Shown here: positions 3,809 to 30,777 of the stretch, piece after piece | Layout of the letters: every line of letters begins with the position of its first letter | Numbering within the stretch: the first letter of the stretch is position 1 | Assembly (NCBI GenBank): GCA_939792625.1 | Contig: CALNFG010000004.1 | Span: forward strand, 1 to 32,204 | Source of the DNA: an uncultured Prevotella sp. | Lineage (GTDB): Bacteria; Bacteroidota; Bacteroidia; Bacteroidales; Bacteroidaceae | DNA: 32,204 bases | Reading direction: 5' to 3' | The notes under the pieces: generated by a model | The model's database searches: none | What the model was told of the DNA's origin: nothing | What the model saw: the letters and a program-made list of their open reading frames with translations, nothing else | Program-made: the position numbers and the translations under genes

Positions 3809-4118
3809 AAAAACCGAGGAAAAATACTGTCGCATGTCATGACATTAAGAAAGCATTGCATACCGTTTTTGCACACAACAGCCCGAAACAGCAATCAGAA
3901 ATGCCCGTCACGGGGCTTCACAGGCAACAAAAAGTAATCTCCAGGGCCTGTTTTTCAGACACGGCCGAAGATGTACTCCGCGTAATGAAAAACACGCCAC
4001 GCACATCATTCCACCGTTCTTTTTTCATGCCATACACAGACATCTGTCAGACCGTTCACCCGAGCCACAGGAGCCGCCGCAAGCACCTTTGTAACAGACT
4101 GACAGACAATATCTTACA

Positions 4119-4213
4119 AAAAGCTTATCTTTTAGCTTGCAAAAGCTTACCTTTCAGGCGGTAAAAGCTTACCTTTTACGAGCCAAAAGACAAGCTTTTG
4201 AAAAACAAAAAGC
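4119..4213. repeat. 22-bp-period array 1 of AAAA-N7-TTTT blocks
   Basis: Units start at 4119 (AAAAGCTTATCTTTT), 4141 (AAAAGCTTACCTTTC), 4163 (AAAAGCTTACCTTTT), 4185 (AAAAGACAAGCTTTT) and 4207 (AAAAAGCG..., decayed). All steps are exactly 22 bp. Confidence 0.85.
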
Positions 4214-4355: not shown

Positions 4356-5327
4356 ATGAAAAAAACTTTACTCTCAGTTGCTGTGGTACTTTGCACAATA
4401 GGCGCAAACGCACAGACCGAAAGCTGGTATGTAAACAACGAGGACGGCACACTCAAGGCTGAGTACACTGCCAACTCAGACCCGACACAGATGTCAGTAA
4501 TTGAATTTGAAACAAAAAGCGTAAAAGGCACACACACTTCAGGCCCGGTTGCAGGATATGCGGACGGCGAAATACTGCCTTTGGAAACAACCTACGACAA
4601 CAGCTGGGGAAACATCTCGAAGAAAGACCTCAGTGCAGACGGCTCAGTGGCACCTTTCTACTATGTACAGGGCAAAGGTAACCCCGTTGACATCAGCAAA
4701 GTGACTTTTGAAGAGATTATGACAGACGATGTTCCCACCGGCGTATACAGAGCTTACTGGGGAGACGCTTACTACTCACCCGACGGCACAGCCGGTCTGC
4801 CTACAAACGGCACATACGTTACTTTCGTGGCAAGAGCTGAAGGCACGCTGAAAATTGCCGCTTGGATAAACAAAGGCAACCGCGATATCTACATTGCAAA
4901 AGCAAGCGACGGCACGGCACTGTCTATCGGCACAGACGTAACCGTATCCGGCTATATCAACGGACAGAACAACGACGTACCCGAAGGCGACCCGCTGGCA
5001 GGCTACCCCATGTATCAGGAGAACATCCCGACAAAAGGCACAGAAGGCTCTGACGCATACGTACTGGGCGAAGGCAACCAGGCTTGCTGGGTTTACCTTA
5101 CTTTCAAAGTAGTACCGGGAGAGACTTACTACGTGTTCAACAAGAGTACACAGATAGGCTTCAGCGGTTATGAATTCACACCTGACGGCGAAAGCGGCAT
5201 CAACGACATTACCGTGGAAGAGCAGAACGACCCGAACGCTCCCGTATACAATCTGGCCGGACAGCGTGTTGACAAGAACGCGAAAGGCATTCTGATACAG
5301 AACGGCAAAAAGTTCATCAGAAAATAA
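4356..5327 (+). CDS. Secreted protein of unknown function with Por/T9SS-like C-terminal sorting tail
   Basis: Signal peptide MKKTLLSVAVVLCTIGANAQ; C-terminal APVYNLAGQRVDKNAKGILIQNGKKFIRK resembles Prevotella type A sorting tails (VYNLAGQRV...KGI.I.NGKKF). Confidence 0.75.
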   Translation: MKKTLLSVAVVLCTIGANAQTESWYVNNEDGTLKAEYTANSDPTQMSVIEFETKSVKGTHTSGPVAGYADGEILPLETTYDNSWGNISKKDLSADGSVAPFYYVQGKGNPVDISKVTFEEIMTDDVPTGVYRAYWGDAYYSPDGTAGLPTNGTYVTFVARAEGTLKIAAWINKGNRDIYIAKASDGTALSIGTDVTVSGYINGQNNDVPEGDPLAGYPMYQENIPTKGTEGSDAYVLGEGNQACWVYLTFKVVPGETYYVFNKSTQIGFSGYEFTPDGESGINDITVEEQNDPNAPVYNLAGQRVDKNAKGILIQNGKKFIRK

Positions 5328-5381
5328 TCTGCACCCAAAGCCGCAAGGCTTTACCATGCTTTGCACATAAAAGTTGATAAT

Positions 5382-14059: not shown

Positions 14060-14140
14060 AAATTAAGAGTTAAGAATCAAGAAAAATGGTCATGCTGTTT
14101 ACAACAAAACATTACAGCCTTAATTCTTAACTCTTAATTT
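14060..14140. terminator. Long inverted repeat between convergent asnA and dnaX; possible bidirectional terminator
   Basis: AAATTAAGAGTTAAGAAT (14060-14077) and ATTCTTAACTCTTAATTT (14123-14140) are perfect 18-bp reverse complements with a 45-bp loop. Confidence 0.5.
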
Positions 14141-20148: not shown

Positions 20149-20229
20149 CAAAGATAACCTTTGACCTTGCCAAAGACTACTTTTAGCTAAGCAATACCTT
20201 ACCTTTTACGAAGCAAAAAGCAGCATTTT
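20149..20229. repeat. 22-bp-period array 2 of AAAA-N7-TTTT-like blocks
   Basis: Units start at 20149 (CAAAGATAACCTTTG), 20171 (CAAAGACTACTTTTA), 20193 (AATACCTTACCTTTT) and 20215 (AAAAAGCAGCATTTT); exact 22-bp steps, degenerate units. Confidence 0.7.
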
Positions 20230-30535: not shown

Positions 30536-30638
30536 AAAACGTGGTCTTTCATACAGCAAAAGGCCACGTTTTACCGCACAAAAGGTAACCTTTTGCGAGA
30601 CAAAAAGCCATGTTTTGCACAGCAAAAAGCAAACTACT
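30536..30638. repeat. 22-bp-period array 3 of AAAA-N7-TTTT blocks
   Basis: Units start at 30536 (AAAACGTGGTCTTTC), 30558 (AAAAGGCCACGTTTT), 30580 (AAAAGGTAACCTTTT), 30602 (AAAAAGCCATGTTTT) and 30624 (AAAAAGCAAACTACT); exact 22-bp steps. Confidence 0.85.
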
Positions 30639-30777
30639 GACAGTCAACAACTTACGTCCGGAGCAAAAATCAATGTCCATGTGCTCGGCCAGAGCAATCC
30701 GCACCCGCGCAGACAAATGCCGCCATAACTGCTAACCGAAGGAAAGAAATAACACCGAAAATAACAATACAGACATA

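Follow-up and report, generated by a model that had tools for sequence, protein, structure and literature searches.

A 32,204-nt stretch of DNA from an uncultured Prevotella species (the window in the following) carries, from position 4119, an array of short A- and T-tracts at a constant spacing. What is this array, how widely does it occur, and at which level could it act? The array is genuine and belongs to a family spread across the genome, with well over 100 copies per genome in the gaps between genes. The element probably serves to organise the chromosome or is mobile. The main reading, to which a probability of roughly 0.45 is assigned, is a BIME-like intergenic element that would act at the DNA level and would have spread partly as a MITE-like unit.

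Arrays in the window and the unit frame

Array 1 extends over 4119..4199 (no strand is assigned to any of the three arrays of the window) and is composed of four 15-bp units (4119-4133, 4141-4155, 4163-4177, 4185-4199) separated by 7-bp spacers. The exact 22-bp steps between the blocks at 4119, 4141, 4163 and 4185, as given in a preliminary description of this DNA, were recovered: the units match 39 of the 40 letters of the frame AAAAG-N5-CTTTT, and TRF reports a 22-bp period with a score of 78. A decayed fifth block placed at 4207 by the same description matches only 4 of 10 frame letters, so that array 1 comprises four units and no more. That description had also announced two other arrays of this geometry, which are located at 20149..20229 and 30536..30616 and consist of four units each. 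Array 2 is a decayed copy (31/40 frame letters; 8, 7, 8 and 8 of 10 per unit) that is also picked up by a pattern search allowing 1 mismatch. Array 3 matches 35/40 letters (8, 9, 10 and 8 of 10) and is followed by a partial fifth unit, identified by frame scoring, at 30624-30638 on the plus strand. The two-unit pattern with ≤2 mismatches occurs 8 times in the window, compared to 0.00 expected from 100 dinucleotide shuffles.

The unit frame AAAAG-N5-CTTTT consists of two half-sites around a central base, with G and C conserved at positions 5 and 11. As originally described, tract position and pitch are constant while the interiors vary. The interior vocabulary is species-specific, with GGTAAGC, GCTTACC and GACGGTC in the source genome (G000), GCTATGC and GCATAGC in G039, and GAGCCGC and GCGGCTC in G084, under a constant frame in all three. 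CRISPR was considered and rejected: the spacers are only 7 bp long and almost always follow R-N5-Y, and the arrays are dispersed over the genome. The view of a dispersed structural element that is neither CRISPR nor an ordinary tandem duplication was borne out.

An IHF-type site adjoins one end of most arrays. Such a site was called where the IHF consensus WATCARNNNNTTR was matched at 8/9 or better within 55 nt of an array. It is found in 80, 86, 61 and 75% of arrays in G000, G065, G078 and G039, compared to 32, 13, 14 and 15% of array-less intergenic windows in the same genomes. In G000, 48/57 arrays carry the site, while 10.2/57 do so in shuffles. Its offsets from the array cluster at 13-14, 25 and 36 nt, corresponding to whole helical turns. 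The site is located within a palindrome of approximately 26 bp with the consensus YAAN4YTGANWATCARN4TTR, somewhat idealised as it was built from sites selected by score. The palindrome adjoining array 1, read off the sequence, spans 4092..4117 on the minus strand; its core TGTCAGTCTGTTA (4092-4104, minus strand) matches WATCARNNNNTTR at 8/9 and is separated from the array by 14 nt. Next to array 3, the site AGTCAACAACTTA (30642-30654, plus strand, 8/9) is found 25 nt from the last unit. The HU/IHF family (PF00216) is encoded in 90/90 genomes, with or without arrays, and its gene count is therefore uninformative as an array marker.

The tracts alternate every 11 bp, and the preliminary description had suggested phased-tract curvature. 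A wedge model does predict some bending: the ratio of end-to-end to contour length is 0.88 for arrays and 0.96 for other intergenic DNA, and bending increases when the arrays are untwisted. It is only moderate, however, given 0.55 for an A5 control, and strong intrinsic curvature was dropped as a candidate. Plain curved DNA, for example as a bend upstream of promoters, would also leave unexplained the G/C at positions 5 and 11, the covariation between units (see below), the IHF-type site at whole-turn distances and the fixed count of four, and the arrays are not tied to promoters. Curvature as the whole explanation is thus very improbable.

Copy number and taxonomic spread

To count copies, a four-unit detector (AAAAG-N5-CTTTT every 22 bp) was run on sampled stretches of several genomes. 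It returned 65 arrays in 726 kb of G000, 43 in G065, 45 in G078 and 33 in G039, where the densities in G065, G078 and a second G000 set are upper estimates because these stretches were chosen in the knowledge of array matches. The same detector found 0 arrays in Markov controls and 0 at pitches of 18-21 and 23-26 bp. Exactly four units are present in 58/65 arrays of G000, 41/43 of G065 and 42/45 of G078. The source genome holds 255 two-unit places (≤1 mismatch) and 235 three-unit places (≤3 mismatches), the latter compared to 0 in a reversed control; the genome-wide count thus lies above controls. As a rough estimate, G000 contains about 150 copies.

A three-unit scan of GTDB species genomes yielded at least 113 stretches. 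Among the 80 matches listed, those with a species name all belong to the Prevotella group, namely P. histicola, P. bivia, P. brunnea, P. corporis, Xylanibacter, Segatella baroniae and Hoylesella; the remaining ones listed are MAGs, a few of which are labelled only as Bacteroidales. The element abounds in common bacteria of the gut, mouth and rumen, the cultured P. histicola and P. bivia among them. Its distribution within the genus is patchy: exact two-unit matches occur in 16/149 relatives searched, all 16 from the genus. Across Bacteroidales, only 4/393 genomes have three-unit matches, and two of these belong to other families (G442 with 31 matches, G272 with 7). The 22-bp geometry thus recurs outside the genus, but rarely. 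The arrays of G442 (L350-L354) and G272 (L355-L359) show AAAAG-N5-CTTTT at 22-bp pitch in three to five units, with other interiors and spacers. They may reflect convergence or deep descent.

A search with the Rfam covariance models gave 0 matches above gathering score in the window, L036, L095, L143 and L346. The preliminary description could name no published family, and likewise no description of the element was found in the open-licence literature. The element is apparently unnamed.

Pairing of units and gene context

A hairpin formed by units 3 and 4 of array 1 had been pointed out before and turns out to be an instance of a general rule. Deviations from the frame are matched by complementary deviations in a partner unit, chiefly between units 1 and 2 and between units 3 and 4. 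Matched deviations amount to 20 vs 7.4 (1:2) and 13 vs 5.4 (3:4) in G000, and to 17 vs 8.1 and 23 vs 7.1 in G078. The signal is weak in G065 and absent from G039 in the same per-unit comparison. A two-hairpin model (1:2 plus 3:4) has 15-bp stems and 7-nt loops. Under this model, cells changed on both sides, counted among paralogues within one genome, number 78 vs 41 by shuffling in G078 and 125 vs 70 in G000 (reached by 0/500 shuffles in both cases), and 64 vs 45 in G065 (6/500), with ≤49 in slid controls. The alternative pairing 1:4/2:3 does not covary (40 vs 46 in G078, 66 vs 67 in G000). A single long hairpin of this type fits array 1 energetically but was rejected as the general fold. A folding-energy chimera test agrees with two hairpins in G000 and G078, is marginal in G065 and fails in G039. 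Template-switch correction of quasi-palindromes, without any function, could yield the same covariation.

The gene context was assessed for 135 arrays of G000, G065 and G078, using gene calls from a simple longest-ORF scheme without a trained gene finder. Codirectional, divergent and convergent gaps contain 78, 42 and 15 arrays, compared to 77, 40 and 18 expected from intergenic length. Since this context is neutral, a terminator or promoter was rejected as the main function. Arrays are distant from start codons (median 180-230 nt) and closer to 3' ends; between codirectional genes, the median distance is 67 nt to the upstream 3' end vs 180 nt to the next start.

Action at the RNA level, with the two tandem hairpins serving as a bidirectional terminator or 3'-UTR stabiliser, would account for the covarying stems and their 7-nt loops, for fold z-scores of -3.6 to -8.2 and for the proximity to upstream 3' ends. 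At one site, the arrays start 5 nt past a stop codon in three species. The strict geometry argues against it, since a hairpin tolerates loop sizes other than 7 nt, yet only one pitch occurs. Moreover, divergent gaps hold 31% of the arrays, as length predicts, a separate terminator hairpin often already precedes the element, and Rfam offers no match. An RNA element is hence considered improbable. The use of untranscribed divergent gaps as freely as 3' regions favours a role at the DNA level and, together with the strict pitch and count and the IHF-type site in register, points to a complex on double-stranded DNA.

Site occupancy, mobility and a proposed DNA-level element

Homologous gaps were compared between G000, G065 and G078. 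Where the flanks of an array site were found again in another of these genomes, an array was present in 62/97 cases (64%), compared to 33/279 (12%) for array-less gaps found again in a relative (Fisher p = 3e-22). The odds ratio is 9-20 within length classes. The 22-bp step is conserved in homologous intergenic regions. The G065 orthologue of array 1 has also kept its four units, with the palindrome at the corresponding side. At another site, a four-unit array with the IHF-type palindrome on the same side is shared by G078, G065, G004 and G053, and in three of the four the array starts at the above distance of 5 nt past the stop codon; the G000 array at this site has the opposite orientation. 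An array is also found in the 3' flank of asd (read from its C-terminus) in G084, P. bivia and G004, at differing distances.

The side of the palindrome is not conserved, and the interiors have been replaced almost completely. In 20 orientable homologous pairs, the IHF side agrees in 10 and differs in the other 10, so that strict descent of every array is unsupported. Interiors at homologous sites are barely more alike than at random sites (0.50 vs 0.44 for same-side pairs). Re-insertion or gene conversion, instead of selection acting at every single site, may hence account for the conserved sites. Shared occupancy together with turned-over sides and interiors points to a combined record of descent and turnover, at gaps that are either preferred or required.

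Some copies bear marks of a mobile unit. Alignment of 18 G084 copies gives a single unit of ~186 bp whose ends, TTTTGTAAAGATAATTC ... GAAAAATATTTACA, are fixed; the ends TGTAAAGATAATTC / GAAAAATATTTACA are near-inverted (TGTAAA), and no target-site duplication is evident in the 18 copies. P. histicola copies are flanked on either side, at constant distances, by TGTAAR..TTC motifs; here the end motif is direct. The fixed ends and motifs in these two genomes show that the element is able to spread as a whole. In the uncultured Prevotella MAG CAMVSV, near-identical long copies are located at L142, L153, L170, L171, L179, L201 and L203. They share the leader CAATTCCGTGAAACAGTTAACAAATGTGAAC as well as their right end, both conserved, and represent the most recently spread version seen.

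The element could accordingly be a non-autonomous MITE-like repeat without a host role, whose four units and IHF-type site serve a transposase or integrase and whose frame is kept by concerted evolution between copies. This is a possible reading, although a doubtful one. It would accommodate the G084 unit, the extra conserved ends in P. histicola and CAMVSV, the species-specific vocabulary, the patchy presence (16/149 relatives) and the unconserved side at homologous gaps. IHF combined with 22-bp protein sites is, in addition, known from transposon ends. The excess of occupied homologous gaps, also when length-matched, speaks against it, as do the lack of evident target-site duplications in G084 and the fact that no transposase is linked to the element. 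In particular, Y1_Tnp/RAYT (PF01797) is absent from the array-rich genomes G000, G012, G039, G078 and the 99%-complete G084, and RAYT/IS200 mobilisation was rejected on this ground.

Arrays of ~22-bp sites combined with IHF or HU are formed by the TnsB sites of Tn7 and the MuA sites of Mu. The arrangement proposed here resembles these ends in joining phased ~22-bp sites and a bending protein in one nucleoprotein complex. It differs by hundreds of dispersed copies, by inverted pairs between units and in that no transposase gene was seen. E. coli BIME-1 (RIB-RIP) elements are REP pairs with an IHF site (PMC2817692; Boccard and Prentki 1993, cited after PMC3733652). The inverted pairs underlie the likeness to BIME-1, which extends to more than 100 intergenic copies, palindromic units and an IHF-type site within a composite element. 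In contrast to BIME-1, the present element lacks the REP consensus, GTAG tag and RAYT, has a strict 22-bp pitch, four units and species-specific interiors, carries its IHF site outside the inverted pair instead of between its arms, and uses divergent gaps equally. Membership in the known GTAG/CGTC type of REP/RAYT systems would explain intergenic, palindromic units in over 100 copies and their BIME-like grouping with an IHF site. Its likelihood is close to nil, since a Y1_Tnp gene is found in none of the five array-rich genomes and neither a GTAG nor a CGTC tag is present at the unit ends; the element is not a member of the BIME family. Among Bacteroidales elements, the closest in kind is BrickBuilt of Porphyromonas gingivalis, a MITE/minisatellite that occurs as 19 elements per genome, has IS5-like TIRs and contains many copies of the spacerless 23-nt repeat AGAYCATARTATCCTCTCRTRTG (18 in one element; PMC4596501). 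Both are intergenic elements of Bacteroidales with a tandem-repeat core, a leader and a tail, predicted stem-loops and no Rfam match. BrickBuilt is unrelated in sequence, and no IHF site is reported for it; only the present element has the 22-bp pitch and the fixed count of four.

In the preferred reading of a BIME-like DNA element, array 1 is a member of a family that extends through the lineage of Prevotella sensu lato. The core is formed by four AAAAG-N5-CTTTT units at an exact pitch of 22 bp, or two helical turns, so that the four sites all point to the same face of the helix. Two inverted pairs are made up by units 1:2 and 3:4, and the 26-bp palindrome with the IHF consensus lies at one end, whole turns away. 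The architecture with its specificity, the covariation and the recurring occupancy of homologous gaps are observations; the binding protein, IHF binding and a topological or architectural role are inferences. A dimeric DNA-binding protein may occupy the four phased sites, the two inverted pairs could possibly extrude as cruciforms under negative supercoiling, and an HU/IHF-family protein would bend the adjoining palindrome. The resulting complex may give a fixed node, either strongly bent or pinned topologically, about once per 10-15 kb. Copies would stem partly from spread of the longer MITE-like unit (~186 bp in G084), partly from inheritance at long-established sites. The universality of PF00216, the unconserved side, the turned-over interiors, the moderate curvature and the many Prevotella genomes without the element count against this explanation. 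A more specific version is put forward only tentatively, being unlikely to hold in full: a nucleoid-architecture system of the Prevotella lineage, in which a dedicated protein would read the phase and frame of the four sites instead of their interiors, an IHF-like protein would bend the DNA, nodes would form at ~150 gaps, and relatives would re-establish them at the same gene borders in either orientation.

The crisp invariants (22-bp pitch, four units, inverted pairs and an IHF site in register) combined with a free interior make the element well suited to testing the upkeep of chromosome-organising sites, and whether mobile repeats turn into such sites. It is also a ready probe for catching its binding protein.

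Other repeats are present in the window as well. A second dispersed palindromic repeat with inverted arms AAATTAAGAGTTAAGAATCAAG / CTTAATTCTTAACTCTTAATTT is located between convergent genes at 14061-14139; it occurs on both strands in more than 10 places of G078, and also in G053, G004 and G065. Sequences 90-94% identical to a 39-bp intergenic stretch at 1920-1958 occur several times in G078 and G053. The C-terminal part (5196-5328) of a secreted protein gene (4356-5327) is repeated in several places of relatives and is probably a shared sorting domain.
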